DNA of 37,504 bases. Origin: Zavarzinia sp. (GTDB lineage: Bacteria > Pseudomonadota > Alphaproteobacteria > Zavarziniales > Zavarziniaceae). The notes below the pieces were generated by a model. The model was not told the origin of the DNA, did no database searches, and saw only the letters and a list, made by a program, of their open reading frames with translations. The stretch spans positions 5,111-42,614 of the forward strand of contig JAOZVS010000132.1 in the NCBI GenBank assembly GCA_025869435.1, given 5' to 3'. Position numbers and translations under genes: made by a program. Below, in pieces: positions 15,835 through 34,040 of this stretch (positions are counted from its first letter, which is position 1; every line of letters starts with the position of its first letter).

Positions 15835-17538
<1,704 letters not shown>

Positions 17539-17689: not shown

Positions 17690-18490
17690 CTATTTCCGCC
17701 GCGGCGCCGGGATCTGGCCGACCAACGCCTCGAACGCCAGATCGAAGATCAGCGACAGGCCCTTGCGAAAGCAGTCGCCTTCCGGCGCCAGCAGGCGGAT
17801 GCCGAGGCCAAGGCCACCCGGCAGAAGGGATGCCCCGGCATGACAGCCGAGGGCATCCAGCCGCGCCTCGATCTCGGCCCCGGCGAGGGCTGCGCTGCCC
17901 GGGCCAAAGATCAGGGCGCTGCCCAGGCAGCGGTATCCGCCCATGGCGCTCTGGAGAAGCGCGCCGCTCACGGCCTGGCGATCGCACAGCAGAAGGGTGC
18001 CATCAGGGGCCTGTATCCGGTTCTCGACCATCAGACTGTCGAAACCGCGGCCCGCGCCGGTCGGATCATGGGCCAGCACGCCATCCGTCACCACACCGGC
18101 GGCGCCGGGCCACAGGGTGACCGCCAGCCGGCTGTCCAGCGCGGCACCGGGCAGCAGGATCGCCGGCTCCGGCGTATGGGCGACGAAACTTCCCGCCTCC
18201 AGACACAGGCTGGTCGACTGGAGGGCCGGCTGGCCCCGGCAATCGTGAACGACGGTCGAGGCCTGGCTCGTCACCTGCGCCGCCGCCCCGGGGCCGACCC
18301 GCAGATCGAGCGTCAGCCGCTCCCCGCTATAAAGCCCACCGGACGAGGATTGCAGATAGAGCGTGGCCAGATCCGGCCGCGCCCGGTCCAGATAGAAGGG
18401 CCGGGTGATATGGAAGGGATAGGGCACATATTGGCGCGTGAGCACGCTGCGCCCGCCGCCGGACTCGAAGCATAGTTCCGCCCCGGCCAT
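17690..18490 (-). CDS. ureD: Urease accessory protein UreD
   Basis: Scaffold protein of 266 residues that binds apo-urease and, with UreF and UreG, helps deliver nickel. UreD-like stretches are YPFHITRPFYLD near residue 25, QSSSGGLYSGERLTLDL, AAAQVTSQASTVVHDC and the internal FDSLMVENRI. The start is ATG 18490, four bases after the ureG stop. It is the last gene of the urease operon, whereas in most proteobacteria ureD comes first. Confidence 0.92.
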   Translation of the reverse strand: MAGAELCFESGGGRSVLTRQYVPYPFHITRPFYLDRARPDLATLYLQSSSGGLYSGERLTLDLRVGPGAAAQVTSQASTVVHDCRGQPALQSTSLCLEAGSFVAHTPEPAILLPGAALDSRLAVTLWPGAAGVVTDGVLAHDPTGAGRGFDSLMVENRIQAPDGTLLLCDRQAVSGALLQSAMGGYRCLGSALIFGPGSAALAGAEIEARLDALGCHAGASLLPGGLGLGIRLLAPEGDCFRKGLSLIFDLAFEALVGQIPAPRRK

Positions 18491-18494
18491 CGCG

Positions 18495-19142
18495 TCAGGC
18501 CGCCGGGGCGTGATCGAACAGGACCGCCGCGACGATGGCGTCCGCCACGGCGGCCACGCCCGCGCCGCGCCGCGCGTTGGTCGCGATCACGGGACGGCCG
18601 CCCCGCACCTGCCGGGCCTCCGCCAACATGCGCGGAAGATCGACGCCGACATGGGGGGCAAGATCGGTCTTGTTCACCACGAGAAGATCGGCGCGCAGCA
18701 CGCCCGGCCCCTTCTTGCGCGGAATGTCGTCGCCGCCGGCCACGTCGATCACGAAGATCCACCAGTCGACGAGATCGAGGGAGAAGGTGGAGGCCAGATT
18801 GTCGCCGCCGCTTTCGAAGATCAGCAACTCGACACCGGGGAAACGCTCCTCCAGCACATCGCCGGCCATGATGTTCAGGCTGGGGTCCTCGCGGATCACC
18901 GTATGGGGGCAGGCGCCCGCCTCGACCGCCGACACCCGTTCGGGATCGATCAGGCCGGAGCGGCGCAAGCGCTCCGCGTCCTCGGCCGTGACCAGATCAT
19001 TGGTGATCACGGCCAGGTCGACACCCCGCGCGTGCAAAACCGGGATCAGCGCCTCGATCAGGGCCGTCTTGCCCGATCCGACCGGGCCGCCGATGCCGAT
19101 GCGCGCCGCCGTGGAACGCCGTGCTTCCAATGCGCTGTTCAT
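18495..19142 (-). CDS. ureG: Urease accessory GTPase UreG
   Basis: Nickel-binding SIMIBI GTPase of 215 residues that drives nickel insertion into urease. The P-loop GGPVGSGKT is at 18-26. The metal motif CPH lies in [16 protein letters not shown], the Walker B-like [12 protein letters not shown] follows, and the guanine motif is VVNKTDLAP. There is no His-rich N-terminal extension. ATG 19142 is used; a GTG at 19151 in the same frame would overlap the ureC stop as GTGA and is a real alternative. Between ureC and ureD. Confidence 0.95.
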
Positions 19143-19147
19143 TCCGG

Positions 19148-20860
19148 TCACCGCAGCATGTAGCGCTGGCCGAGGGGAACTTCCGAGGCCGGCTCGCAGG
19201 TGGCGATCTCGCCATCGACATAGACATCGAAAGTCTGGGGATCGACGCGCATTTCGGGACAGCGGTCGTTCCACAGCATGTCGGCCTTGGTCAGCTTGCG
19301 CGTGCCCTCCGCCGGCAGCAACATCTTGGACAGGCCGAGCGTGCCCGCCAGACCTTTCTGAATCGCCAGCGGATGGACGAAGCAGGCGGAAAGCGCCGGC
19401 GCCGCCCGGCCGAAGGCACCCCATTGCGGCCGCATCCGCAAGGGCTCGCAGGTCATCAGCGATGCCGCGGAATCGCCCATGGCGCCCCAGGCGATGAAAC
19501 CGCCCTTGATCACGATTTCCGGCTTGATGCCGAAGAAGCCCGGCCGCCAGACGACGATATCCGCCATCTTGCCATCCTCGAGCGAGCCGATGTGCTGGGC
19601 GACGCCGAAGCTGCGGGCGGCATTGATCGTGTATTTCGCGACATAGCGCTTGATGCGGGCATTGTCGCCCCGGCCGGGCTTGTCTTCCGGCAGAGGCCCG
19701 CGCTGGCGCTTCATCTTCGAGGCCAGCTGCCAGGTCCGGCAGATCACCTCGTGAATGCGGCCCATGCCCTGACTGTCGGAGCCCAGCATGGAGATGGCAC
19801 CGATATCATGCAGCACGTCTTCGGCCGCGATGGTCTGGGCGCGGATCCGGCTTTCGGCGAAGGCCACGTCTTCCGGGATCGCCGGGTTCAGATGGTGGCA
19901 GACCATGGTCATGTCGAGGTGTTCGTCGAAGGTGTTGACCGTGTAGGGATTGGTCGGATTGGTCGAGGACGGCAGGCAGTTGGCGAGCCCCGCCACCCGG
20001 ATGATATCGGGGGCGTGGCCACCGCCCGCCCCTTCCGTGTGATACATATGGACCGTGCGCGTGCCGATCGCCGCCAGCGTATCCTCGACGAAACCGGATT
20101 CGTTCAGCGTGTCGGTGTGCAGCTGAACCTGGAAATCCAGATCGTCGGCCACCGACAGGCAGTGATCGATGGTCGCGGGCATCGCCCCCCAGTCCTCGTG
20201 GATCTTCAGACCGACGCAGCCCGTTTCCAGCTGTTCGACCAGCGAGGCCGAGACATGGGAATTGCCCCGGCCGAGAAAGCCGAAATTGACCGGAAAGGCT
20301 TCCGCCGCCTGCAGCATCTTGCCGACGTTGAACGGGCCGCCGCAGTCGATGCCGACGGTGATCGGACCGAGCGAGCCGCCGAACAGCGTGGTGATACCCG
20401 ACGAGATCGCGTGGTCGCAAAGGCCCGCGCTGTCGAAATGGACATGGACATCGATCGCGCCGGCCGTGACGATCAGGCCCTCGCAATCGCGGACCGTGGT
20501 CGCGGCCGAGACGATCAGCCGGGGATCGACGCTATCCATGATGGCCGGATTGCCCGCCTTGCCGATGCCGACGATGCGGCCGTCGCGAATGCCGAGATCG
20601 CCCTTAACGATGCCGACGACAGGATCGATGATCACGGCGTTGCACAGCAGGAAATCCAGCGCCCCCTCCGCGCTGGTCACACCGGCGGCGAGACCGATGC
20701 CATCCCGCAGGGTCTTGCCGCCGCCATGCAGGCATTCGTCGCCGTAGACCGCGTAATCCTTCTCGATCACCGCGACGAGGCCGGTATCACCCAGTTCGAT
20801 GCCATCGCCCACTGTCGGGCCATAGAGCGAGGCGTAAGCCGCCCGAGAAATGATCGCCAT
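19148..20860 (-). CDS. ureC: Urease subunit alpha
   Basis: Catalytic subunit of urease (urea to ammonia and carbamate), 570 residues. Every expected nickel-site residue is present: H139 and H141 (DVHVHF), the carbamylated K219 and H221 (GLKIHEDWG), H248 ([10 protein letters not shown]), H274 ([12 protein letters not shown]), flap C321-H322-H323 (MVCHHL) and D362 (GSDSQGMGR). By offset from the Klebsiella numbering the match is nearly one-to-one. The loop following HVHF lacks the usual ICPQQ and TTCTPG segments and reads GLCDH and GIDCGGPFN instead, so this is a divergent lineage, although probably active. ATG 20860 directly follows ureAB, with 3 bases between. Confidence 0.96.
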
Positions 20861-20863
20861 GGC

Positions 20864-21559
20864 TCAAGCCCCCCTGAAACCGCGGGCCCGCGCCAGCGCG
20901 AGGGCCGCGTCCTTGACCGCCGGGTCGGTCACGTCGCCCCCGGTCAGTCCGTTCAACCCGGTCAGCGACTGGCGCCCGCCGAAGCGGACGAGGGTGACGG
21001 ATTTTTCCTGCCCCGGCTCGAAGCGGACGGCGGTGCCGGCGGGAATATCCAGCCGGCGCCCGAAAGCGGCCTCGCGATCGAAATCGAGGGCCTTGTTCGC
21101 CTCGAAGAAATGATAGTGGGAACCGATCTGGATCGGCCGGTCGCCGCTGTTGCGCACCAGGACGCTGACCGGCGGACGGCCGGCGTTCAGCTCGATATCG
21201 CCATCGGCCGGATGCAGGCGCCCGGGCACCAGAGCATCGGGCGCCGAGCCCGCCGCCGGGCGGATGGGTTCATGCACCGTGACCAGTTTCGTGCCATCCG
21301 GGAACAGACCCTCGACCTGCAGGATCGGCATCAGGGCGGCGACACCCGGCATGACATCGTCGGTCGTCAGCACGGTGGAGCCGAAGCCCATGAGATCGGC
21401 GACCGAACGCCCGTCCCGCGCGCCTTCCAGGATTTCGTCGCAGATCAGGGCGACTGCTTCCGGGTGGTTCAGCTTCAGGCCCCGGGCCCTGCGCTTGCGG
21501 GCCATTTCGGCGGCGGTGAAGATGACCAGCCGTTCCATTTCCGTGGGTGTCAGCAGCAT
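20864..21559 (-). CDS. ureAB: Fused urease gamma-beta subunit (UreA-UreB)
   Basis: A single 231-residue protein containing both small urease subunits. Residues 1-100 are UreA-like: [44 protein letters not shown], and [17 protein letters not shown]. Residues about 110-225 are UreB-like: [41 protein letters not shown] and [18 protein letters not shown]. Such fusions are best known in Helicobacter and occur in some other bacteria. ATG 21559 is preferred over a longer reading to 21739 that lies in ureF. Followed at once by ureC. Confidence 0.95.
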
Positions 21560-21566
21560 GGCGACC

Positions 21567-22232
21567 TCAATTGGCAAAGAAGCGCACGTCGGCGCGCATG
21601 TGGCGTTGAACCGCGATATCGACGAAGGGCGTGAAACTGGACAGGTCCTCGCCCGGCGCCGGCAGGACCACCAGATCGGCGCTGTCGTCGAGGGCATGAA
21701 CAAGGGCGCGCTGGGCTTCGATCGCGCCGATCGCGCCAAGACGCACCGCGGCCTGGGTCAGCGCCGTCGCGGTGGTGTAATGCGATAGCGCCACCGCTTC
21801 TTCCGGGGAAATGCCAAGGCGGGCCCAGACCAGACCCTGCACCACGGCAAGGTGGCCGGGCGCGGTGCCGGCGCGGATCCGGCGCAGATAGTCGCCGGCG
21901 CCAGCCGTGCCCAGCCTGTCGTGGGTGGTCAGGAAGGCCCGGCCATTGCGCGCCGAGCCTTCCCGCAAGGGCGCCACCAGGCTGGAAACCTCGACCAGAC
22001 GGTCGCAGGCGGCGACGAGATCGAGATCATCGGCCGACCAATAGGCCCTCGCCAGCGCCACCCGGTCGAACCGCGCCCAGCGATGGCGAAGGAGCAGCGA
22101 GAGCGCCTCGCCCAGCGCCAGCGCCGTCGACAGATCCGTGGCGGCGGCCAGGGCTTCCATCCCGTTGGAGAAGCCGAAACTGCCGCCCGGAAAGGCGCTG
22201 TCCGCCTGCCACAGGAGACGGCTCAGGGGCAT
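21567..22232 (-). CDS. ureF: Urease accessory protein UreF
   Basis: All-helical accessory protein of 221 residues, thought to bridge UreD and UreG in the nickel-delivery complex. UreF landmarks are [21 protein letters not shown] at the N-terminus (from residue 6 on, typical PxGxxxxSxGxE pattern), [16 protein letters not shown] in the middle and [10 protein letters not shown] near the end. ATG 22232 overlaps the end of ureE by 10 bases, indicating coupling; the 7-base gap to ureAB continues the operon. Confidence 0.93.
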
Positions 22233-22690
22233 TTGGGCAGGCTTTCGAGAACGCTGGCGCCAAAGGTTCGGCCGCCGAGCTGGCTTGCCATCCGGGCGAT
22301 ATAATCGGCTGCCGGCGCCTCCAGCGCGACGAGCAGCGCGCCGCCCTCGAAACGCACCTTCCAGTGCAGATTGCCGGCGTGATAGCCGAGTTCGAGCGCG
22401 TCTTCCGGCCGCTCGGGCACCAGGCGCAACCAGTGCTGGCCAGCGACCCGCAACACGATCGCCGAATGACCATCGAGGAAAAGCACCGCGCCATCGAACA
22501 ACTGCTGATCGCGCGGCAAGGCGATCGCGAGATCCCGCCCCCGGCCCGAGGTCACGCGCAGACGGTGACGGGCGATATCGACCGGGTCGATGGTCACGAG
22601 GTCGATCCCGCCATGATGCTCGACATGGTGCAGCCTTTCGGCCAGCGCGGGATCCATCCGGTTGCCCAGGATGGCTTCGATCTTCTGCAT
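22223..22690 (-). CDS. ureE: Urease accessory metallochaperone UreE
   Basis: Nickel-binding chaperone of 155 residues. The N-terminal peptide-binding domain contains RGRDLAIALPRDQQLFDGAVL. The C-terminal metal domain contains ALELGYHAGNLHWKVRFEGG, where the conserved GNxH motif (GNLH) supplies the nickel-binding His, and ends at SLPKCP with no His-rich tail. ATG 22690 has a strong GAGGAGGGGG site upstream. First recognisable urease gene of the operon. Confidence 0.92.
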   Translation of the reverse strand: MQKIEAILGNRMDPALAERLHHVEHHGGIDLVTIDPVDIARHRLRVTSGRGRDLAIALPRDQQLFDGAVLFLDGHSAIVLRVAGQHWLRLVPERPEDALELGYHAGNLHWKVRFEGGALLVALEAPAADYIARMASQLGGRTFGASVLESLPKCP

Positions 22691-22713: not shown

Positions 22714-22730
22714 CCCGGCGTCACGCCGGG
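22714..22730. repeat. Hairpin over the stop codon of the small unknown gene, before ureE
   Basis: CCCGGCG and CGCCGGG (22714-22720 and 22724-22730) flank the three bases TCA, which on the minus strand are the TGA stop codon (22721-22723) of the 100-residue gene. A seven-pair GC stem here sits 24 bases before the ureE start and could influence coupling. It also resembles the core of REP palindromes. Confidence 0.4.
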
Positions 22731-23023
22731 TGCGCGGATCTGCGGTACATGAAAACGCATCTGCCCGCCCGCGCCGGGCCGAAGCCGGGAGCGGGATCGA
22801 GGCGATAGCGGCCAACCATGAAATCGACCACGGTTCGTGCCGCGACCGGGGTCATCGCCGGCTTCCACAACCAGATGTCGCGGTCGCGATCGATGCCCAG
22901 GGTGTCGAACATCGCCTGTTCCGGGTCCTCGGCCATGCCGATGGTCCAGTCCTCCATGCGGGCGCCGAATTCCTTGATGTAACTGAAGCAGTCGAATTTG
23001 ATCTGCTGCACGGAAAAGGTCAT
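22721..23023 (-). CDS. Small protein of unknown function in the urease operon
   Basis: I do not recognise this 100-residue protein. The N-terminus MTFSVQQIKFDCFSYIKEFG is followed by an acidic stretch (EDWTIGMAEDPEQAMFD) and a basic C-terminal third (GRYRLDP, CVFMYRRSAHP). There is no signal peptide or membrane helix. It has a good site upstream (GAGGGGAGGG before ATG 23023) and lies 15 bases after the Sel1 gene and 30 bases before ureE on the same strand, so it is almost certainly translated with them. Aromatic residues are frequent (W, F, Y). Any role in urease or amide metabolism is inference from position. Confidence 0.7.
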   Translation of the reverse strand: MTFSVQQIKFDCFSYIKEFGARMEDWTIGMAEDPEQAMFDTLGIDRDRDIWLWKPAMTPVAARTVVDFMVGRYRLDPAPGFGPARAGRCVFMYRRSAHPA

Positions 23024-23038: not shown

Positions 23039-23734
23039 TCAGCCCGGAACCGGCACGAGGCGGGCGGGCGAACTGACCGAGGCGGTGCGGCCGCGCCAGG
23101 CCTGAAACAGGCCGGCGCCGCGCTGCTTTTCCTCGGCCGACATCTGGGACACCACGCCTTCCAGGGCATTGAGCGCGGTGCCCACGCCATGCTGGGCCGC
23201 CAGCGACAGCCAGGCGAAGGCCTGGGAGCGATCCTTCTCGACCCCGAAACCATTGGCATAGAGAAAGCCGAGGCGGGCCTGAGACGGGTAATGTCCCTGT
23301 TCCGCGGCGCGGCGGAACCAGAGGGCAGCGGCGGCCTCGTCCTTGGCCACCCGGTCGCCCTTGAAATAGAGCGCGGCCAGATTGGCCTGCGCCATGGCGT
23401 CGCCCGCCTCGGCGGCCCGGGTCAGCCAGGCAAGACCGGCGACGGCATCGGCTACGGTGCCCTGCCCCATCACCAGCATGGCGCCGACATTGGTCATGGC
23501 CGCGATCGCGCCGGCTTCCGCCGCCCGCAGATACCAGGTGAAGGCGATGCCAAGATCGGATGCCACACCTTCGCCATTGGCGTGGAGCGCCCCGACCCAG
23601 GCCGCCGCCTCGGCATCGCCGTCCTCGGCAAGCGCGAGAAACATGACCCGGGCACCGGCGGCGTCACCCCGGTGATAAAGCGCGACCGCCTCGACGAGGG
23701 TGGGCGTGGTCGCGATGTCTGTGGCCGTGTTCAT
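23039..23734 (-). CDS. Sel1-repeat (SLR/TPR-like) protein
   Basis: Soluble protein of 231 residues built of about five Sel1-like repeats from residue 20 to 200, visible as WYLRAAEAGAIAAMTNVGAML, WLTRAAEAGDAMAQANLAALY (each starting one helix pair) and WFRRAAEQGHYPSQARLGFLY. Sel1 repeats mediate protein-protein contacts. There is no signal peptide from the chosen start ATG 23734 (GGGGAT upstream). The short C-terminal tail includes MSAEEKQRGAG, like the ends of many SLR proteins. It is placed between the Rieske-like gene and the urease genes; a scaffold role is possible but not shown. Confidence 0.85.
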   Translation of the reverse strand: MNTATDIATTPTLVEAVALYHRGDAAGARVMFLALAEDGDAEAAAWVGALHANGEGVASDLGIAFTWYLRAAEAGAIAAMTNVGAMLVMGQGTVADAVAGLAWLTRAAEAGDAMAQANLAALYFKGDRVAKDEAAAALWFRRAAEQGHYPSQARLGFLYANGFGVEKDRSQAFAWLSLAAQHGVGTALNALEGVVSQMSAEEKQRGAGLFQAWRGRTASVSSPARLVPVPG

Positions 23735-23745
23735 GGCTATCCCCG

Positions 23746-24771
23746 TCAATAGATGAAAGAGGCGAGTTCGTTGGCGGCGCCGTCGAGCGGATGGGCATCG
23801 AAGCGTCTCACGACCCTGTCGCACAGCCAGCGCGCCGCCGGGTCCGAGACCACGGGAACGGGGCCACGTCCGCGCATGTCGACGATGGCGTCGACCGCGG
23901 ACTGGCTGCGCGCCGCCTCGATCCCCCGGCTGTTGATCACATTGCGCCAGCCGAGCCCGTCATCGCCAAAGACATGGACGCGGCACAGCGTCCTTGTCAG
24001 CGCGGTGGGTTGCAGCAGGACGACACAGACGGCCTCCCCGGCCTTGAGCACGACGAGATTGGGAAACAGCCAGGCGGCCCGGCCGCGCGCGCGGCCCAGC
24101 ACTGTCTCGCCCGTCAGCATGTCGGCGCTGCCGGACGGCGTTTGCGTGTCGATCCCGGCGACATATTGCCCGGCGAGTTTCCAGTTGCAGCCGAATTCCA
24201 GCCATTCCTCGAACAGGCGCGGCGTGCCGTCGCGCGCGATCATCGGCGCGAATTCCGCCAGTGCCGATGCAATGCGATCGATCTCCTCGCCGTGGGGATC
24301 GAGATGGGCGAAGAGCAGCGATCCGGCCTCGGCGACACGCACGGGCAGCAGGCGTTCGGGCCGCAGGCCGAGATATTGGTACATCTCGGGCGTATCATCG
24401 CCGAGCTCGCCCGCGCTGATTGCCTTCCGGTCCCGGCTATGGCCGCAGGAGGTGAAGGAACAGGGCGTCTTGGTGCCTTGCTGGCACTGCAGGGGCACGA
24501 AGCGGCAACCACCGTGCTGCGCCTTGTTGAACCGGCCAGCCAGGCCGCCATCGGCACCGCGCTGCACATGCATGGCGTGATCGCCGATCGTATAGGGCAG
24601 GACATCGCCGGTCTCGGCGACATCGTCACGGGTGCCGATGCAGATCCAGTCCCGGGTCCAGATCGCCTCGTCTTCCTGACGGGCAAAGCCAAGGGTCCTG
24701 AAGGCCGCGATATCCAGCATATTCGGTCTATCCGCCTTTGGCCGCGCGCTCGAGCCGTCCCGCACCATCAT
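23746..24771 (-). CDS. Rieske-oxygenase-like protein with lost metal ligands
   Basis: Protein of 341 residues with the layout of a ring-hydroxylating oxygenase alpha subunit: EDEAIWTRDWICIGTRDDV (33-51), a Rieske-position segment (80-115), LLPVRVAEAGSLLFAHLDP (141-159) and the NWKL motif (196-199). The canonical C-x-H pair reads A84-Q85-H86 and the C-x2-H pair reads C104-S-F-T107, so half of the [2Fe-2S] ligands are absent. Instead there are four cysteines at 89, 96, 104 and 109 plus H111. After NWKL, where the oxygenase iron histidines should follow, the sequence is AGQYVAGIDTQTPSG with none. ATG 24771 has GGGAAGG 7 bases upstream. It follows the DMFase gene. Oxygenase activity seems unlikely; the function is unknown. 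Confidence 0.8.
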   Translation of the reverse strand: MMVRDGSSARPKADRPNMLDIAAFRTLGFARQEDEAIWTRDWICIGTRDDVAETGDVLPYTIGDHAMHVQRGADGGLAGRFNKAQHGGCRFVPLQCQQGTKTPCSFTSCGHSRDRKAISAGELGDDTPEMYQYLGLRPERLLPVRVAEAGSLLFAHLDPHGEEIDRIASALAEFAPMIARDGTPRLFEEWLEFGCNWKLAGQYVAGIDTQTPSGSADMLTGETVLGRARGRAAWLFPNLVVLKAGEAVCVVLLQPTALTRTLCRVHVFGDDGLGWRNVINSRGIEAARSQSAVDAIVDMRGRGPVPVVSDPAARWLCDRVVRRFDAHPLDGAANELASFIY

Positions 24772-24859: not shown

Positions 24860-27256
24860 TCACCGCGATGAAGCCAGAACCGGGCTTTCGTAATCCGCCC
24901 GGCCACGATGCCTGATCGCCTCGGCCGGGGCCGCCGGCAGCGGACCGTCCTTGGCGAAGTAATCGAGCACATTCTTCGTCAGCTTCGAGATGTTGTTGTC
25001 GCAATTGTTCCACGGCAACGACCCGCAGTAAGCGATCGAGCTGAAGGCGAAGCAACCACCACCGTTTGGCGTCTCGTGGAAGGTGATGTCGGCGCGAACG
25101 CGCGGATGCACCGTGCCGTCGAGACCCTGCTGGTTGAAGCCGAAGTCCTCCATGACGAGGAGATAGGCTTCGGTGTGACGCCCGGCCGAGGTCGCCACCG
25201 TCAGGATATGCGGGGGCGAGCCCAGCATGGTGTCCACGATGTCGAGTTCGAGACCGGCGGCGCCGCCGCCGACGAGACCGAAATTGCCCAGCTTCTCGTC
25301 ATATTCGATGCCTTCGAAGGCGAAGGCCACGCGGCTGTCCAGGCTTTCCGGCGTCCGCGAGTAATAGGTCGAGATGTCGAAGCCTTCGGACGACATGCCC
25401 GTGCCGGCGACCGAGTGCAGGTAACGGCCACGATAACGCCACATGCCACCCAGCTCGCCCGTGCCCTGGTGGTAATATTCACCGGGGTCGGCACGCCAGG
25501 TGCGGATGCCGGATTCGCAGCGCCGCATCTCGGTGACGATGCCCCGGCCCAGCTCGTCATAGGCCGGATGGAAGGAATGCACCCAGTACCAGGCGTCGGC
25601 GCCCATGTACATCAGGCGGCCGCCGCGCTGCGTGTAATTGTGCAGGGCGTCGAGCTGCGGACCGGAATTATGTTCGGGATGCGAGCCGGTGATGATGACG
25701 TTGTAATTCTCCAGCCGGGCGAGACCGTCATAGGTCACATCCTCGTCGGTGAAGACGTCATAGTCATAGCCCATGGTCTCCAGCCAGTAGATGAGGTGGA
25801 GGTCGGCGGGATACTGCCACGGCGCCTGAGCCAGGAAGTGGTCGTACTTCGGCCGGATCGACAGGATCGGCCGCAGGCGCGACGACAGGCAGATGCCCGA
25901 GCCGTCGGTATGGGTGTCGTAGATCGAGCCGGCATATTCGCGGTGCTCGGCCAGGAACATGTTCTGCTGCTGCATGATCGGCACGCGGTAGACGAAGAGT
26001 TCCGCGCCTCCGGCGTTGCAGGCGACATGCTCGTTGGCATAGGCCATGTAGGAGATGGTCGGAACCATCACCGCGATCTTCGACTGTTCCTGACCAAGAC
26101 GCGGCACGACCCAGAACGGCACGTAATCCTCGTCGCCCTCGGACGTTGTGACCTTGGCGGCGTAGAAACGGCTCTTGGCGTCCTCGGGCACGTCCCACTC
26201 GAAGCTGACTTCCCAGCGGGCGTTGTCGAGATCGTCGTCATGGAAATGGATCGCGCCATATTCCTTGGGCGAGGATTTCCAGTCGAACACGGTGCCGGCC
26301 CAGTTGTAGCCGGTCAGGGCCCGGGTCGGGCAGTTCACCAGCGCGGCGTGGAACTTGTAGGGACCGAGGTCCTTGGCCGTCAGCGTATTGATCCCGTCCG
26401 AGAAATCCCAGGCGGCGACGATGGCTTCCGACAGGGCGCCGGTCGGGCCGGAATTGCGCCGCTCGGTCAGGCCGGGCTGCACGCCCGCCTTCATCATCTC
26501 GATCTCGAAACGCGACAGGGCGCGGCTGCACAGCCGCGGGCTGTCGATCTTGCCGTTGTAATGACCGGCGACGACGACGCCCTTGGGCAGTGACGAATAG
26601 GCCAACGGGCTCGGATCCAGATGGCCGACATAGCCGGCGATCACCAGCGGAATGGCCGAATGCTCGATCTTGCCGGCGAATGTCGCCGTGACCGGCGGGA
26701 TCACCGGATCGAGGGCATAGACGACCTGCGGCTCGTGATAGAGCACGACCTCGCCGGTCGCGGCATCGAAGCTGGCGGCCAGGAAATGCCAGGCATGGTC
26801 GCGCAGCCTGGCGCCGGTCGAGAAGGTCTCGCCGTTGATGCGAAGCTCGGCGCAGCCTTCCTCGTTGATGAAGAGGCCGTAACCCTTGCCGTCCGACCAT
26901 TTGGTCACCAGGCCCTGGGGACCATGTTTCCAGTAGCGGGGATCGGTCGCCGGCGTGGTCGGCCAGATCCAGCACTGCAGGGTGAAACTCTCGACGCGGA
27001 GCTGCGGCGCATCGGCGACATAGCCGTAGGAGCCGCCGTAAACGACCTGCTTCACACCTTCATAGGTGCCTTCGATCGCCGACGGAACCGCCGCCTCGAT
27101 GAAGCCGGGGCCGCGCGGGTTGGTGTCGCCATTGATCAGACGAACGATCGAAGCATCGTATTTCGCGGGGCCGTCGCAATTGATGTAGAACTTGATCTTG
27201 CCGCCGGGATGAACGCTGAACTTGTCAGCGTAACCGGTGAGCCGCATGGCGCACAT
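24860..27256 (-). CDS. dmfA2: N,N-dimethylformamidase-type large (beta) subunit
   Basis: Iron-dependent amidohydrolase subunit of 798 residues, resembling the large subunit of DMFase, which splits N,N-dimethylformamide into dimethylamine and formate. A LamG-like beta domain spans about 90-240 (FTLQCWIWPTT, HAWHFLAASFDAATGEVVLY). The catalytic domain follows from about 390. The known enzyme holds a mononuclear iron with two Tyr and one Glu (Tyr399, Tyr440, Glu521 in Paracoccus). Corresponding residues here appear to be Tyr406 (SYMAYANE), Tyr446 (AGSIYDTHTDG) and Glu528 (GSHPEHNSG, with the neighbouring His526 also kept). ATG 27256 has a clear GGAGGA 8 bases upstream. The true substrate could be another small amide. 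Confidence 0.88.
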   Translation of the reverse strand: MCAMRLTGYADKFSVHPGGKIKFYINCDGPAKYDASIVRLINGDTNPRGPGFIEAAVPSAIEGTYEGVKQVVYGGSYGYVADAPQLRVESFTLQCWIWPTTPATDPRYWKHGPQGLVTKWSDGKGYGLFINEEGCAELRINGETFSTGARLRDHAWHFLAASFDAATGEVVLYHEPQVVYALDPVIPPVTATFAGKIEHSAIPLVIAGYVGHLDPSPLAYSSLPKGVVVAGHYNGKIDSPRLCSRALSRFEIEMMKAGVQPGLTERRNSGPTGALSEAIVAAWDFSDGINTLTAKDLGPYKFHAALVNCPTRALTGYNWAGTVFDWKSSPKEYGAIHFHDDDLDNARWEVSFEWDVPEDAKSRFYAAKVTTSEGDEDYVPFWVVPRLGQEQSKIAVMVPTISYMAYANEHVACNAGGAELFVYRVPIMQQQNMFLAEHREYAGSIYDTHTDGSGICLSSRLRPILSIRPKYDHFLAQAPWQYPADLHLIYWLETMGYDYDVFTDEDVTYDGLARLENYNVIITGSHPEHNSGPQLDALHNYTQRGGRLMYMGADAWYWVHSFHPAYDELGRGIVTEMRRCESGIRTWRADPGEYYHQGTGELGGMWRYRGRYLHSVAGTGMSSEGFDISTYYSRTPESLDSRVAFAFEGIEYDEKLGNFGLVGGGAAGLELDIVDTMLGSPPHILTVATSAGRHTEAYLLVMEDFGFNQQGLDGTVHPRVRADITFHETPNGGGCFAFSSIAYCGSLPWNNCDNNISKLTKNVLDYFAKDGPLPAAPAEAIRHRGRADYESPVLASSR

Positions 27257-27332
27257 GAGTAGAGTCCTCCGTTCCACGCATCCCTGGGGGATGTTGGTGA
27301 GTTGATCCCAGTTTTCGAGGGCACCAGGGTCC

Positions 27333-27378: not shown

Positions 27379-27819
27379 TCAGGTCACGGGCCAGTTGTCA
27401 TCCCGGCGCTTGTAACCTTCATGATAATGCTCGGGCATGCCGTCGGTTTCCGGCATTTCATCGAGCCGCATCAGGAAGATGTCGTGCTGGATTTCCTGCT
27501 CGCTGGTATAGACCTTGTCGTTGACGAAGGTCGGCGGCACGCCGCGGATGCCCGACAGGCGACCGATGCGCCAGGCCTTCTCGACCTCGGTGCAGATGAC
27601 GACGAGCTTGCCCTTGACCGAGGCGCCGCGCATCCGCAGCAACACCCGGCGCAGCAGATAATCCTCGTGGACGCCGCCGCTGATATCGGTGGTGTCGCCC
27701 GGGGTCGCGCATTTGAGGACGGAGAAGCCGGCGACGCCTTCCATCGATTTCGTGCACTCCAGGTGTTCCTGGATCAGGCGCTCGCGCTCGGGCGTGCCCT
27801 TCTTTGGTATCGGAATCAT
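27379..27819 (-). CDS. dmfA1: N,N-dimethylformamidase-type small (alpha) subunit
   Basis: Protein of 146 residues matching the small DMFase subunit in size class and in position directly before the large-subunit gene, the usual dmfA1-dmfA2 order. It is charged and soluble: IPKKGTPERERLIQEHLECT near the N-terminus (from residue 4), a central LLRRVLLRMRGASVKGKLV, and the C-terminal MPEHYHEGYKRRDDNWP. The small subunit supports the large one in the active heteromer; it carries no known catalytic residues. ATG 27819 has GAGGGAAG upstream. It lies 56 bases after urtE. Confidence 0.82.
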   Translation of the reverse strand: MIPIPKKGTPERERLIQEHLECTKSMEGVAGFSVLKCATPGDTTDISGGVHEDYLLRRVLLRMRGASVKGKLVVICTEVEKAWRIGRLSGIRGVPPTFVNDKVYTSEQEIQHDIFLMRLDEMPETDGMPEHYHEGYKRRDDNWPVT

Positions 27820-27875: not shown

Positions 27876-28574
27876 TCAGATCGTCAAATGCCTGTTCACC
27901 AGTTCTTCCGTGACTTCGCCGATCGGGCCCTTGGCCACGACGCGGCCGTGATCCATCATCACGAAGGCATGGCCCAGCTTGCGGGCGACCTTGATGTGCT
28001 GTTCGGTCAGGATCAGCGTGATGCCGAATTCCCGGTTCAGCCGCATCAGCGTGTTGCCGATTTCCTGCACGATGTTGGGCTGGATGCCTTCCGTCGGCTC
28101 GTCGAGGAGCAGCACCGTCGGATTGGCGGCGAGCGCGCGGGCGATCGCCAGCTGCTGCTGCTGCCCGCCCGACAGAAGACCCGCCCGCTTGTTCAGGTTT
28201 TCCGCGAGATAGGGAAACAATTCGAGGCAAAGCGGCGGAACCTCGGTCGCGGCATCGGCCCGGGCGAAAGTGCCGAGAAGGATATTCTCCCTCACCGAGA
28301 AATTGCCCAGGATCTGCCGGCCCTGCGGCACGTAACCAAGGCCGTAGCGGGCGCGGTCATGGGTCGGCCGGTTGCCGATGTCCTGGCCGTTGATGGTGAT
28401 CTTGCCGGTCGAGCGATCGGTGAGACCCATGATGGTGCGCACCAGCGTGGTCTTGCCCACGCCGTTCCGCCCCAGCACGCACAGGCACTCGCCCTTCTCG
28501 ACGCCGAAGCTCATCTCCCAGAGGATCGGGGTCTTGCCGTAGTAGGATGTGACATTCTCGAATTCCAGCAGCAT
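27876..28574 (-). CDS. urtE: Urt-type ABC importer ATPase UrtE
   Basis: Branched-chain-type ABC ATPase of 232 residues, second of the two motor subunits. Walker A is GRNGVGKT at 35-42, Q-loop GYVPQGRQIL, signature LLSGGQQQQLAIARAL, and Walker B LLLDEPTEGIQPNIVQEIG. The phrase DEPTEGIQP is characteristic of UrtE, the urea transporter ATPase, rather than LivF. GAGGAG precedes ATG 28574, which lies 2 bases after the urtD stop. Last transporter gene before the DMFase genes. Confidence 0.9.
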   Translation of the reverse strand: MLLEFENVTSYYGKTPILWEMSFGVEKGECLCVLGRNGVGKTTLVRTIMGLTDRSTGKITINGQDIGNRPTHDRARYGLGYVPQGRQILGNFSVRENILLGTFARADAATEVPPLCLELFPYLAENLNKRAGLLSGGQQQQLAIARALAANPTVLLLDEPTEGIQPNIVQEIGNTLMRLNREFGITLILTEQHIKVARKLGHAFVMMDHGRVVAKGPIGEVTEELVNRHLTI

Positions 28575-28576
28575 GG

Positions 28577-29317
28577 TCAGTGCTCCTCACTGCCGAGATA
28601 GACTTCGCGCACCCGGGCGTTGGCTTCGATCTGGTCGATCGAGCCCGTCGCGAGATGGGCGCCCATGTGCATGACCGTGACCACATCCGCGATCTCGCGG
28701 ACGAAAGCCATGTCGTGTTCGACGACGACCAGGGTCTTGGTCTTCTTCAGCTCGTTGAACATGCGGGATGTCTTGTCGATTTCCTGCTCGGTCATGCCGG
28801 CCGCCGGTTCGTCCATCAGCAGGATCTGCGGGTCCTGCATCAGGACCATGCCGATCTCCAGCCACTGGGTCTCGCCGTGGGACAGCGTGCCCGCCTCGAT
28901 GGCGAGGCGCTGGGTGAGGCCGACCTGGGTCGCCACCTCGTCCAGCTTCCGCTCCATGCCCGGATCGCGGAAACGGAACATGTTCTTGAACGGGCTGGTC
29001 TGCCGGCTGTAGGCGACTTCGAGGTTCTGACGCACGGTCAGATCCTTGAACACCGCCGGCACCTGGAACTTCCGGCCGATGCCCCGGCGCGCGATCTCGT
29101 GCTCGTCGAGACCGGTGATGTCATTGTCGTTCAGCAGGATCCTGCCCGAGGACGGCTTCTGCCGGCCCGTGATCATGTCCATCGTCGTCGTCTTGCCGGC
29201 ACCATTCGGGCCAAGCAGACAGCACAGCGTGAGTTCGACCACATCGAGGCTGAAGTCGTTCAGGACGACCGTGCCGCTGTAATCCTTGGACAGGTTGTGG
29301 ATCTCGAGGATACCCAT
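28577..29317 (-). CDS. urtD: Urt-type ABC importer ATPase UrtD
   Basis: ABC ATPase of 246 residues. Walker A is GPNGAGKT at 36-43. The signature is the unusual LSHGETQWLEIGMVLMQDP, a UrtD trademark in place of LSGGQ, followed by the Walker B region LLMDEPAAGMTEQE and H-loop VVEHDM. ATG 29317 has GGGAGGG upstream. It lies 14 bases after urtC and 2 before urtE. Confidence 0.92.
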   Translation of the reverse strand: MGILEIHNLSKDYSGTVVLNDFSLDVVELTLCCLLGPNGAGKTTTMDMITGRQKPSSGRILLNDNDITGLDEHEIARRGIGRKFQVPAVFKDLTVRQNLEVAYSRQTSPFKNMFRFRDPGMERKLDEVATQVGLTQRLAIEAGTLSHGETQWLEIGMVLMQDPQILLMDEPAAGMTEQEIDKTSRMFNELKKTKTLVVVEHDMAFVREIADVVTVMHMGAHLATGSIDQIEANARVREVYLGSEEH

Positions 29318-29331
29318 CGTCTCGCCCTCCC

Positions 29332-30447
29332 TCAGCCCTGAACCTTGGCGCCGGCAACCGGCCCCGGCGCGGATTCGCGCTCGGCCGCGGGTTTCGCCAC
29401 CAGAAGACCGAGACCGCTTTCCAGAAGACCCGCCAGGCCCTTGGGCAGGAAGCGGACCACGAAGATGAAGAAGCCGCCGAGAATGAGCAGCCAGGTGGCG
29501 AGAAATTCGTCACCCAGATAGCTCTGGCCGCCCTGGATCATGAAGGCGCCGATGATCGAGCCGAGCAGCGACATGCGCCCGCCGATCCCGGCCCAGATGA
29601 CCATGGAGATGCTGAAGGAGACATCGAGCTGCGCCGGCGAGACATATTGCACGGCAACCACCCAGCAGCAGCCGGCGATGGCGGCGATGAAGCCGGACAC
29701 GGCATAGATCACCGTCTCGTAGTAGGAGACGCTGTAACCGAGGAAACGCACCCGCTCGGAATCCGCGCGCACCGCCTGAACGATCAGACCGAATTTCGAC
29801 GTCGTGATCAGCTTGATGATCAGGGTCATGGCGGCCAGCAGGAACAGCACCATCCAGTAGATGAAGCCGCTGTAGGGATCGATCTCGAAGCCGCCGATGC
29901 TCAGGGGCGCCGGCGGGCTGATGCCGTTGACGCCATTTGTGAAGGGCTGACTGTCGAGGATGATCGTGTACCAGGCCGAGAGCATCGCCAGCGACATGAT
30001 GGCGAAGAAGGGACCCGAGACCCGCGCCCGGAACATGATGGTGCCGAAGATCACGCAGAACAGGGTCGGCACGGCAAGGGCGATGAAAATGCCCCAGCCC
30101 GTGTGCCAGAACGGCTCCCACATCAGGGGCAGCTGTTCGACGCTGTTGTTCAGCATGAAGGGCGGCATCGGGCTGGTTTCGGGATCCTGGCTCTGCATCT
30201 GCATGGTCATGGCCATGCCATAGGCGCCGAGGCCGAAGGCAATGCCCTGACCGAGATTGAGGATGCCGCCGAAGCCCCAGCACAGCGAGATCGACAGCGC
30301 CAGCATGCCAAAGACGCCATAGGTGGCGAACTGGTTCATCATGAAGGCGTCGTCGCTGAGCACGGGAACGAACGCCAGAGCCCCGAAGAACAGGACATAG
30401 ACGACCCATTGGGCGGTCTTGTTATGGTAGGGATTGCTCTTGAACAT
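29332..30447 (-). CDS. urtC: Urt-type ABC importer permease UrtC
   Basis: LivM-type inner-membrane permease of 371 residues with about nine to ten hydrophobic segments, starting with VVYVLFFGALAFVPVLS. Family motifs are GFGGILNLGQGIAFGLGAY (about 58-76) and the cytoplasmic-loop segment VQAVRADSERVRFLGYSV, which contacts the ATPases. The C-terminus is a short hydrophilic tail rich in Ala, Glu and Pro. ATG 30447 has GAGGAG upstream and it lies 27 bases after urtB. Confidence 0.92.
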   Translation of the reverse strand: MFKSNPYHNKTAQWVVYVLFFGALAFVPVLSDDAFMMNQFATYGVFGMLALSISLCWGFGGILNLGQGIAFGLGAYGMAMTMQMQSQDPETSPMPPFMLNNSVEQLPLMWEPFWHTGWGIFIALAVPTLFCVIFGTIMFRARVSGPFFAIMSLAMLSAWYTIILDSQPFTNGVNGISPPAPLSIGGFEIDPYSGFIYWMVLFLLAAMTLIIKLITTSKFGLIVQAVRADSERVRFLGYSVSYYETVIYAVSGFIAAIAGCCWVVAVQYVSPAQLDVSFSISMVIWAGIGGRMSLLGSIIGAFMIQGGQSYLGDEFLATWLLILGGFFIFVVRFLPKGLAGLLESGLGLLVAKPAAERESAPGPVAGAKVQG

Positions 30448-30474: not shown

Positions 30475-31371
30475 TCAGCGTCGTGCCTTGGTGATCGCGA
30501 ACAGGCCCTGGGGCTTGTAACGAAGCAGGATCACGATGAGGACGAAGAGCAGGAAGCGGGCGAAAGTATCCGAGGTGAAATAGGCGAAGATCGACTGCAG
30601 CTCGCCCGTGCCGGCGCCGGCCGCGACACTGCCGACCAGCGAACCGCCACCGACGACGACCACCAGGAAGGCCTGGACGACATAGGACGTGCCCATGGTG
30701 GGCAGCACGATGTTCAGCACCCCGAAGAGCGAGCCGGCGACACCGGCGAGGCCGGCGCCCAGCGCGAAGGTCATCATGTAGACCCGGCCGGAATTGATGC
30801 CGAAGGCGGCCGCCATTTCCTTGTTCTGGGTGACGGCACGCACCTGCATCCCGAAGCGGGTGCGATAGAACAGATACCAGATCATGGCGACCAGCAGGGC
30901 GGTGATCAGCAGCACGACGATGCGGAAGAGCGAGATCGAGAAGAAGCCGATCTCGACGCTTTCCTGAAACATCTGCGGCACGGCGATATATTTCGGGTCC
31001 GACCCGAAGATCAGCCGCACGCCCTGCATCAGCACCAGCGACACGCCCCAGGTGGCGAGCAGCGTATCGAGCGGCCGATTGTAGAGATAGCGTATCAACC
31101 CTCGTTCCATGATCAGGCCGACCAGGCCGACGATGACGAAGGACGCCGGAATGCACAGGAAGAACGGCACGCCGAAATAGGCCTGAAGCATGTAGGACGA
31201 ATAGGCCCCGAGCATCAGGAATTCGCCATGCGCCATGTTGATGACGCCGGCCGTGCCATAGATGATGGTAAGACCGAGCGCCGCGATCAACCAGATCGAA
31301 CCGATCGAAATGCCCAGCAGCAGGGCACTCGCAAAAGCACTCAAGTCGAAATTTCCGAACAGACTGTCCAC
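30475..31371 (-). CDS. urtB: Urt-type ABC importer permease UrtB
   Basis: LivH-type inner-membrane permease of 298 residues with about eight helices. Motifs are GLTIIYGTAGVINMAHGEFL (about 32-51) and the loop RAVTQNKEMAAAFGINSGRV. It lacks the long N-terminal periplasmic domain found on many UrtB proteins, and so is closer to the FmdE-like permeases of short-chain-amide transporters. The start is GTG 31371 with GGAGG 6 bases upstream. It follows urtA after 121 bases that hold a stem-loop. Confidence 0.9.
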   Translation of the reverse strand: MDSLFGNFDLSAFASALLLGISIGSIWLIAALGLTIIYGTAGVINMAHGEFLMLGAYSSYMLQAYFGVPFFLCIPASFVIVGLVGLIMERGLIRYLYNRPLDTLLATWGVSLVLMQGVRLIFGSDPKYIAVPQMFQESVEIGFFSISLFRIVVLLITALLVAMIWYLFYRTRFGMQVRAVTQNKEMAAAFGINSGRVYMMTFALGAGLAGVAGSLFGVLNIVLPTMGTSYVVQAFLVVVVGGGSLVGSVAAGAGTGELQSIFAYFTSDTFARFLLFVLIVILLRYKPQGLFAITKARR

Positions 31372-31492: not shown

Positions 31493-32800
31493 TCAGATGA
31501 CGTTGGTGCGCAGCTTGCCGTCCGGCGCCATCAGGCCCTTGGCGGTGCATTTGCCAAGGTCGGGATAGATCGAGTACGGATCCGGCGCCACATGTTCGGC
31601 GGCCTGCTTCACGATCTTGAAGCTGCCGTCGGCCTGGCACTGACCGATCTTCGGCACCAGCCAGGTGTTGAAGTTCTCGGGATCGATCCAGGTCAGGCCT
31701 TCGGGCGAGACTTCGTCCGGCACCTTGATGCCGGCGCTGGCGTCGCGCAGCTTCGCGGAAGTGACGTCCTCGATGCCATGGTCCGCGATGGCCTTCTCGA
31801 GGCCATACTTGAAGACATAGGCCGAGGTATAGGTCTCTTCCATGTTGTAGTGCGTGGTGCCGTTCTTGCCGTATTTGCTGCCGAGGAATTTCTCGACGAA
31901 CTTCGCGTTGGTCGGATTGTCCAGGCCCTGGAAATAGGGCGCCGACAGGAAGTGACCGGCGCCATATTCGACACCCATCGCCTTGGTCTCGATCTCACCG
32001 GTGGTGAGCGAGGCGATCGGCATTTTCTCGACCTTGAAGCCTTCCTGCTTGAACTGCTTGTGGAAGGCGATGTCGGACGCGCCGACCACGGTCGAGAAGA
32101 TGAAGTCGGGGTTGGCCTGCTTGATCTTGTTCAGCACGGGGGTGAATTCCGACGAACCGAGCGGGATATATTCCTCGCCCAGCAGTTCGCCGCCCGCCTG
32201 CTCCAGCCACACCTTGGCGTTCTTGTTCGACTCCTTCGGCCAGACATAGTCCGAGCCGACGAAGAAGACCTTCTTGCCGAAGTTCTGGACCATGAAGGGG
32301 ATCAGGTCCTTGGAATGCTGGTTGGCCAGGGGGCCGGTGCAGATGGTGTTCTGCGTGCATTCCGCGCCTTCGTAACAGGTCGGATAATAAAGCAGGCTCT
32401 TGTGCTGCATCACCGCCGGCAGCACCGCCTTGCGGCTGGCCGAGGTGTAGCAGCCGAAGGTCGCGATCACCTTGTGACGAAGGATCAGCTCCTTCATCTT
32501 TTCGGAATAGACGTTGAAGTCGGACTTCGCGTCGATGATCACGGGTTCGATCGGCGAGCCATTGATGCCGCCGGCCGCGTTGATCTCGTCGATGGCATAT
32601 TGCATCGCGAGGGTCGAATCCTCTTCCGGCACGGCCAGCGAACCGGTGAGCGAGAACAGGATGCCGATCTTGATCGGCTCGCCCTTCTTCAGGGTGGCAC
32701 CCCAGGCTTCCCGGGTGACCGGCACCCAGAGATGCGGCGCCGCGATCGCGGCGGCGGCCACGGCCGTCTTCTTCAGAAACCCACGACGTGAAATCTTCAT
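31493..32800 (-). CDS. urtA: Urt/FmdD-type substrate-binding protein (urea or short-chain amide)
   Basis: Periplasmic binding protein of 435 residues in the Peripla_BP_5 family that includes UrtA (urea), FmdD (short-chain amides) and AmiC. A Tat signal, MKISRRGFLKKTA, is followed by an Ala-rich hydrophobic stretch to about residue 35. Family landmarks are IKIGILFSLTGSLAVPEED, FGCYTSASRKAVLPA and YPTCYEGAECTQNTICTGP. Urea versus amide specificity cannot be decided by eye; the DMFase and urease genes downstream fit either. ATG 32800 has AAGGAGG 6 bases upstream. First gene of the urtABCDE set. Confidence 0.9.
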   Translation of the reverse strand: MKISRRGFLKKTAVAAAAIAAPHLWVPVTREAWGATLKKGEPIKIGILFSLTGSLAVPEEDSTLAMQYAIDEINAAGGINGSPIEPVIIDAKSDFNVYSEKMKELILRHKVIATFGCYTSASRKAVLPAVMQHKSLLYYPTCYEGAECTQNTICTGPLANQHSKDLIPFMVQNFGKKVFFVGSDYVWPKESNKNAKVWLEQAGGELLGEEYIPLGSSEFTPVLNKIKQANPDFIFSTVVGASDIAFHKQFKQEGFKVEKMPIASLTTGEIETKAMGVEYGAGHFLSAPYFQGLDNPTNAKFVEKFLGSKYGKNGTTHYNMEETYTSAYVFKYGLEKAIADHGIEDVTSAKLRDASAGIKVPDEVSPEGLTWIDPENFNTWLVPKIGQCQADGSFKIVKQAAEHVAPDPYSIYPDLGKCTAKGLMAPDGKLRTNVI

Positions 32801-33090: not shown

Positions 33091-34038
33091 TTAGACCTTG
33101 CGCAGCGAATATTCCCAACTGTCGCTGTTCATCAGCGTGCGAGCCCGCATGAACTTCCAGATGCCGTATTTGTAGTAGTCGAAATCGATCGACGAAATGC
33201 GTCGCTGCACCATCGACCAGGTGGCCCACTTGATGTCGGCCAGTGCCTTGTGCAGATGGATGCGAGCCGAAATCTCCGGCGTTACCTGACCGAAATAATC
33301 CTCGATGATCTCCGCCTCGGTATCCGGGTCGAAGAACATCTCGCCGAACCACATGGCGATCTCGTAGGCGCGATCGTTGTTCGAGGCATATTCGAAATCG
33401 ATCAGCATGACTTCGCCCGTGCCGTCGACCATGAAGTTGGCGGCGATCGTGTCGTTCATGCAGGGCACCAGATCGATCCCGGCGGCTGTGATCGCCGCCT
33501 TCGCCCGGTCGCACTGCAGGCGAAGCCAGGCGTGATCGAGGGGACGCCGGGCGCCCAGCTCCGCCGACTGCGCCTCATGCTCGTCGATCATGTCGAAGAC
33601 GGTCTTGGTCAGGCCGAGGCGCGGCTGATCGTTGAAGGCCCGCAGGGCTGTCGTCGCGTTGCGCCGCATGTGGGGTTGCAGGAAATCATCGTTGGACGAC
33701 GACCGCCAGCCGTCGACATAGCCGAGGATTTCAACCCCGCTGTCCTCGATGAAGCCGACCACCGGCGGACCATAGCCCGAGGCCGCGGCGGCCAGGCTGG
33801 CGTCATGCGCGGCCCGGCGATCGACGAAGATCTCGGTGCCGGGCCCCGGGATCTTGACGAAGTAATCCTGGGCATCGCCTTCGACCCGGACCCGCCAGTT
33901 GGCGTTGGAAATGCCGCCCGATACCACACGGTAGGACAGCGTCCTTCCCTGCCACGCCGCGACCTTGGCGATTTCCCGCTCCAGCGCCCGCGCGGCCTGT
34001 GCCGCCCCCTGACCATATGCCGTGAAGGAGGTACTCAT
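33091..34038 (-). CDS. Choline-kinase/aminoglycoside-phosphotransferase-like protein 1
   Basis: Protein-kinase-fold small-molecule kinase of 315 residues. The N-lobe shows SGGISNANWRVRV (39-51) and the ATP lysine K62 (YFVKIPG). The catalytic loop is PCMNDTIAANFMVD, with D196 and N201 kept but Met where the Brenner motif has His. The metal-binding loop is LIDFEYASNNDRAYEIAMWF (D214), very like LicA-type choline kinases. The helical tail ends SWEYSLRKV. ATG 34038 has AGGAGGG upstream, and the neighbour kinase gene ends 2 bases before. The substrate is unknown; an amino-alcohol or another hydroxylated nitrogen compound is plausible. Confidence 0.82.
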   Translation of the reverse strand: MSTSFTAYGQGAAQAARALEREIAKVAAWQGRTLSYRVVSGGISNANWRVRVEGDAQDYFVKIPGPGTEIFVDRRAAHDASLAAAASGYGPPVVGFIEDSGVEILGYVDGWRSSSNDDFLQPHMRRNATTALRAFNDQPRLGLTKTVFDMIDEHEAQSAELGARRPLDHAWLRLQCDRAKAAITAAGIDLVPCMNDTIAANFMVDGTGEVMLIDFEYASNNDRAYEIAMWFGEMFFDPDTEAEIIEDYFGQVTPEISARIHLHKALADIKWATWSMVQRRISSIDFDYYKYGIWKFMRARTLMNSDSWEYSLRKV

Positions 34039-34040
34039 GG

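Follow-up and report, generated by a model that had tools for sequence, protein, structure and literature searches.

Rieske oxygenases are defined by two iron sites. Their alpha subunits (PF00848; folds 3vca/4qup for stachydrine demethylase and 6y8s for CntA) hold a [2Fe-2S] cluster in an N-terminal Rieske-type domain, through ligands of the form C-x-H ... C-x2-H, and a second iron in a 2-His-1-carboxylate site. Additional cysteines occur in this group, with the Cys206/Cys209 pair of CntA lying by an intact mononuclear iron site (PMC10952381). Rieske-type domains without cluster ligands have been described for the plant and algal membrane proteins TEF5/PSB33/LIL8, where TEF5 is an assembly factor for PSII, another metalloprotein complex (PMC12164590).

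DMFase, by comparison, is a hydrolase whose iron is bound by Y399, Y440 and E521, with H519 essential, and which is active as DmfA1A2 without any partner of the kind described below (PMC7686228). A second pair, carried by plasmid pAMI5 of Paracoccus aminophilus, shares 34% (DmfA1) and 40% (DmfA2) identity with the pAMI2 proteins, and no link between this copy and the use of DMF was found (PMC4543880); the Rieske-type gene standing beside it is not discussed in the text of that paper, from which the word ‘Rieske’ is absent.

Here we describe a family, named R4C in this work, whose members sit beside a DMFase-like hydrolase, lack both canonical iron sites and carry a new, invariant set of cysteines and histidines on the old Rieske site. 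Our starting point is a stretch of 37,504 nucleotides from Zavarzinia sp. (contig JAOZVS010000132.1, assembly GCA_025869435.1), referred to throughout as the window. The literature that we searched, restricted to open-licence papers, holds no description of the family.

R4C retains the fold of a Rieske oxygenase

23746..24771, minus strand: R4C, Rieske-oxygenase-fold protein with a rebuilt Cys4/His3 site; 342 codons including the stop, Met at 24771

Read from 24771 to 23746, the gene translates into a protein of 341 amino acids, for which the sole Pfam match is Ring_hydroxyl_A at a sub-threshold score; the PF00848 cut-off is passed by the orthologue from genome G086, with the window's own R4C falling below it. 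NCBIfam returns weak matches to GbcA (NF058607) and HcaE (NF042946), and a sequence search of the PDB leads to the alpha subunits of biphenyl and benzene dioxygenase. An AlphaFold model based on 33 aligned sequences (pLDDT 80, pTM 0.83) finds its top Foldseek matches in the PDB among stachydrine demethylase, CntA and terephthalate dioxygenase (E about 1e-14); as modelled, the whole chain adopts the Rieske-oxygenase alpha-subunit fold, including the N-terminal Rieske-type domain, with pLDDT dropping below 50 over residues 87–110 (full-length numbering), the section that corresponds to the cysteine-bearing loops. The catalytic-like domain is partly retained, in the form of NWK, PN and QP elements. 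No export signal is evident on inspection of the R4C N-termini, so the protein is presumably cytoplasmic.

R4C descends from the Rieske oxygenases, though by their defining features it is not one of them. The automated annotation of the Paracoccus copy as a ‘biphenyl 2,3-dioxygenase’ is, on present evidence, misleading.

Both iron sites are lost and the Rieske site is rewritten in place

24427..24525, minus strand: conserved motif block KAQHGGCRFVPLQCQQGTKTPCSFTSCGHSRDR, codons 83–115
24568..24579, minus strand: codons 65–68, with His65 and His68; invariant in 29/29 orthologues, not His in 17 canonical oxygenases
24516-24514, minus strand: His86
24507-24505, minus strand: Cys89
24486-24484, minus strand: Cys96
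24462-24460, minus strand: Cys104
24447-24445, minus strand: Cys109

A first-pass annotation of the sequence had placed Ala84, His86, Cys89, Cys96, Cys104, Thr107, Cys109 and His111 at the Rieske site, and the translation has each residue at the position claimed; the first Rieske cysteine is indeed Ala84 and the second Rieske histidine Thr107. Its description of a new four-cysteine set requires some revision: Cys89, Cys96 and Cys109 are new, but Cys104 is the second Rieske cysteine, retained. Of the two histidines that it noted nearby, His86 (the first Rieske histidine, also retained) is invariant in 29/29 orthologues, whereas position 111 is Tyr in 27 and His in 2, placing His111 outside the conserved site. 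The spacing of the motif is preserved, as A-x-H-x17-C-x2-T; with the usual 17-residue gap between His86 and Cys104 kept, the Rieske site was rewritten in place.

The 29 orthologues compared come from three family-level groups and from P. aminophilus pAMI5 (the Paracoccus row being left out of one R4C alignment). In all 29 the cluster ligands are absent, the motif reading A/V-x-H ... C-x2-T/L, with position 84 occupied by Ala in 28 and Val in one, and position 107 by Thr in 28 and Leu in one. We set these against 17 canonical Rieske oxygenases of the same class, selected for C-x-H...C-x2-H, such that the presence of Cys84 and His107 in them is true by construction. Position 109 is Trp in all 17 of the canonical proteins, Cys is found at 89 in two and at 96 in two, the four-cysteine set in none, and none has His at position 65 or 68. 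The second iron site has gone as well, in agreement with the earlier remark that the non-heme iron histidines after NWKL are missing: the carboxylate-His-His pattern that follows NWK is seen in 17/17 canonical oxygenases and in 0/16 R4C members. Taken against the oxygenases, then, R4C shares one motif cysteine, one histidine, the motif spacing and the NWK and PN elements; it is without Rieske Cys1, His2 and the 2-His-1-carboxylate site, and has three new invariant cysteines and two new invariant histidines in addition.

Invariance of the four cysteines among homologues, proposed at the outset as a check, is borne out, with Cys89, Cys96, Cys104 and Cys109 identical in 29/29 orthologues, as are His86 and, absent from the first-pass list, His65 and His68. 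No other cysteine is invariant, the remaining five of the window's R4C varying between members. Conservation is far higher in the block 83–115 than elsewhere in the protein (19/33 columns invariant, against 11/226 in residues 116–341, for 19 orthologues), and the invariant polar neighbours of the cysteines include Q85, R90, Q95, S105, S112 and D114; the remainder has diverged to 34–47% identity with the window's sequence. Nine pairwise comparisons give dN/dS values of 0.12–0.34 for R4C and 0.02–0.12 for dmfA2; R4C is under purifying selection, whilst evolving several times faster than DmfA2. The view that the protein is functional rather than decayed is therefore supported, by the invariance of the cysteines in 29 orthologues together with purifying selection.

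R4C is inherited and located with one clade of DmfA2

24860..27277, minus strand: dmfA2-like, DMFase large-subunit homologue; iron ligands conserved, with N547D and Y522H
27379..27819, minus strand: dmfA1-like small subunit, 146 aa; 65–72% identical to orthologues in R4C carriers

The window's DmfA2 is a clear homologue of the large subunit of Paracoccus DMFase, aligning with 6LVB over its full length (E = 7e-154). Throughout the R4C-linked clade the ligands Y399, Y440 and E521, and the histidine H519, are kept (29/29), with Asp at position 547 and His at 522 (29/29); N547 is retained in 10/11 more distant homologues. The clade can be described as a branch of the DMFases in which the 2-Tyr-1-Glu iron ligands are intact and the adjoining pocket is altered; it differs from DMFase also in the constant presence of R4C and of a small orphan gene (small100, see below), and mostly of a Sel1-repeat gene. 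The dmfA1-like product is 28–39% identical, over short stretches, to those of some more distant DMFase-like loci.

Searches for R4C returned a 53% identical relative in the same class (G086) and a second on plasmid pAMI5; a profile built from these two and the window's R4C found members in 16/21 genomes of family f81, and a profile of the window and f81 proteins found them in 11/248 genomes of family f70, plus five further members in genus g222. Among 398 sampled genomes of the phylum, the only match besides the window's own genome was in G525. A scan of genome contigs gave distant oxygenases only, and one of viral contigs no match.

At all 29 loci read, R4C adjoins a single DmfA2-like clade, whose members are 71–81% identical to the window's DmfA2, and in each carrier for which we read the neighbourhood it lies directly downstream of dmfA2; the suggestion that it is a partner of the DMFase is supported by this arrangement. 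Nineteen more distant DMFase-like loci carry neither R4C nor small100, and in 0/19 does a canonical Rieske gene stand directly downstream of dmfA2, though a few occur kilobases away. A homologue with canonical ligands beside a DMFase gene, which the first-pass annotation had named as the sign of simple decay in the window's copy, was not found at these 19 loci. The linkage holds genome by genome: a DmfA2 homologue is present in 64 of 385 genomes of the class and R4C in only five, all with a DmfA2 of at least 74% identity; in f81, 16/16 R4C-positive genomes have a clade-type DmfA2, and the five R4C-negative ones only homologues of 49% or less. In a forward test within g222, genomes picked by their DmfA2 alone proved to contain R4C in 5/5 cases against 0/6 controls, with R4C no more than 1.4 kb from dmfA2 in all five and no more than 250 bases from it in four. 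R4C is thus co-inherited and co-located with DmfA1–DmfA2.

The surrounding gene cluster

27876..28574, minus strand: urtE-like ABC ATPase
28577..29317, minus strand: urtD-like ABC ATPase
29332..30447, minus strand: urtC-like permease
30475..31371, minus strand: urtB-like permease
31493..32800, minus strand: urtA-like binding protein, below the UrtA equivalog cut-off
23039..23734, minus strand: Sel1-repeat protein
22721..23023, minus strand: small100, orphan protein of about 100 aa, matching neither a Pfam family nor a fold in the PDB
22223..22690, minus strand: ureE-like (cluster urease)
21567..22250, minus strand: ureF-like; start not fixed
20864..21571, minus strand: urease gamma-beta fusion; start not fixed
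19148..20860, minus strand: ureC of a second urease, nickel-ligand motifs kept
18495..19424, minus strand: ureG-like; true start probably further downstream
17690..18490, minus strand: ureD-like

The window, G525 and f70 share the order urt-like importer, dmfA1, dmfA2, R4C, Sel1, small100, interrupted at some of these loci by further genes that lie between the importer and dmfA1. In f81, Sel1 and small100 are swapped; the Paracoccus locus, which lacks Sel1, reads dmfA1, dmfA2, R4C, small100, AmiS/UreI channel, and Sel1 was also not seen on the short contig of L070. Sel1 is accordingly present at all but two of the R4C loci read, and small100 at every one, 36–49% identical to the window's. For the AlphaFold model of small100 (pLDDT 90.6) the PDB offers nothing better than E 0.5, and the protein may belong to a fold or family that has not been described. 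Among the identified cluster partners we recognised neither a Rieske reductase gene nor one for a ferredoxin.

The urease operon, whose cluster-type enzyme retains its nickel-ligand motifs, follows in the window, L105 and L139–L142 and is inverted in L143; in f81 carriers it lies elsewhere in the genome, and several f70 loci have no adjacent urease. At least two urease alpha genes are found in 12/12 R4C carriers tested. A partnership with urease, the other possibility raised in the first-pass annotation, is the weaker one: a cluster urease adjoins R4C only in the window and some of f70, f81 carriers having theirs elsewhere.

An aliphatic amidase of the AmiE type lies within or beside the cluster in L139–L142 (matching NF009802 in L140), with a 52–53% identical relative lying close to the clusters of L071 and L072. 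Its positions in the f70 genomes are:

L139:11507-12631: aliphatic amidase
L140:7193-8338: aliphatic amidase
L142:17805-18833: aliphatic amidase

Beside the cluster in L142 (3251-6868) and L024 (8274-11690) we also see genes for a sensor kinase, a response regulator and an AmiC/UrtA-like binding protein, likely to provide amide-sensing regulation. A choline-kinase/APH-like gene accompanies the cluster, both in the window (33094-34182, minus strand) and in some f70 genomes (L140:851-1954; L141:856-1959), on differing sides of it. Directly beyond ureD, the window carries a GroEL gene (15838-17529, minus strand); we considered it as a chaperonin of the cluster and rejected it, as it was not seen at the other loci read.

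Discussion

The reading that we favour, at roughly even odds (about 0.5), is that R4C, no longer an oxygenase, serves a single clade of DMFase-type metallo-hydrolases as a dedicated accessory protein, with a rebuilt cysteine-rich site that most probably binds a metal. The metal would be iron or zinc, bound either as a mononuclear centre or as an Fe-S cluster, and R4C may dock onto DmfA1A2 together with Sel1 and small100, there to load, assemble, hold or tune the tyrosinate-iron site of a clade with an altered pocket. The cluster as a whole may take up a short-chain amide or a substituted urea and hydrolyse it; the Urt-like importer, second urease and aliphatic amidase point that way, and with its binding protein below the UrtA equivalog cut-off, the ligand of the importer may not be urea.

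A narrower version, in which the new metallocentre makes R4C a dedicated maturation or activation partner for the iron site, with Sel1 and small100 taking part in assembly, we hold as a tentative proposal, possible though on balance doubtful. Two points tell against the favoured reading as well as this one: as DMFase is active without such a partner, a maturation role would have to be peculiar to the R4C-linked clade, and the fast evolution of R4C relative to DmfA2 is unusual for an essential loader of an active site. A precedent for the accessory role, by analogy, is TEF5/PSB33, in which a ligand-less Rieske-like domain serves in assembly; R4C is, however, a two-domain bacterial alpha-subunit homologue, and the passages of PMC12164590 consulted describe no replacement cysteine set for TEF5. 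CntA resembles R4C in having extra cysteines, but those of R4C occupy the former Rieske site, in a protein left with no iron site.

Rather unlikely, in our estimation, is that the four cysteines hold a structural zinc in place of the cluster, making R4C a permanent subunit of the hydrolase complex, either structural or for substrate channelling, that performs no chemistry itself; four cysteines within 21 residues, a retained fold, the lack of a catalytic site and the strict linkage to DmfA2 would all suit such a role, yet the invariant Q85, R90, Q95, S105, S112 and D114, along with His65, His68 and His86, exceed what a structural zinc usually needs, and so many invariant polar residues around the cysteines suggest, in our judgement, more than a structural knot.

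Less probable again is a redox protein, with a [2Fe-2S] or [4Fe-4S] cluster bound mostly by cysteine and acting as an electron carrier, or as a redox or iron sensor, for the amide pathway. The site does occupy the former [2Fe-2S] position, with the spacing unchanged and one old Cys and one old His kept. That said, the hydrolase requires no electrons, R4C is, unlike the Rieske oxygenases, tied to a hydrolase, with no reductase or ferredoxin recognised among the genes identified in its clusters, and we know of no Fe-S protein with the cysteine spacing x6-x7-x4.

The cysteines could alternatively pair as disulfides or form a metal-free thiol switch, as in the loops of bc1-type Rieske proteins, given that Cys89 falls at what we take to be the position of their loop-1 disulfide cysteine; this we regard as improbable, the invariant His86, His65 and His68 beside the cysteines suggesting ligands instead, and the protein being presumably cytoplasmic.

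A role as helper of the cluster urease, or in nickel handling, would explain the direct linkage of the urease operon in the window, L105 and L139–L143 and the multiple urease alpha genes of the carriers, but is highly improbable, and as a main role we reject it, because R4C follows dmfA2 and not adjacent urease; f81 and several f70 loci have R4C with dmfA1A2 and no urease alongside, and the urease is already served by a UreD, E, F and G encoded with it. Lastly, that R4C is a decayed oxygenase, as the loss of both iron sites and the fast evolution might imply, is rejected: the new site is invariant in 29/29 orthologues, dN/dS stays at or below 0.34, the reading frames are intact and gene order is conserved.

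For the Rieske family, R4C is a clear example of evolution rewriting a metal site: the fold is kept, both original sites are discarded, and new cysteines and histidines have become fixed in their place. The strict tie between R4C and DmfA2 offers a testable lead on how a two-tyrosine iron site is loaded or tuned, as well as on an undescribed cluster for the utilisation of amides or ureas. Were the maturation reading true, R4C and its neighbours would form an accessory system for DMFase-type enzymes comparable to that which UreD, E, F and G provide for urease.
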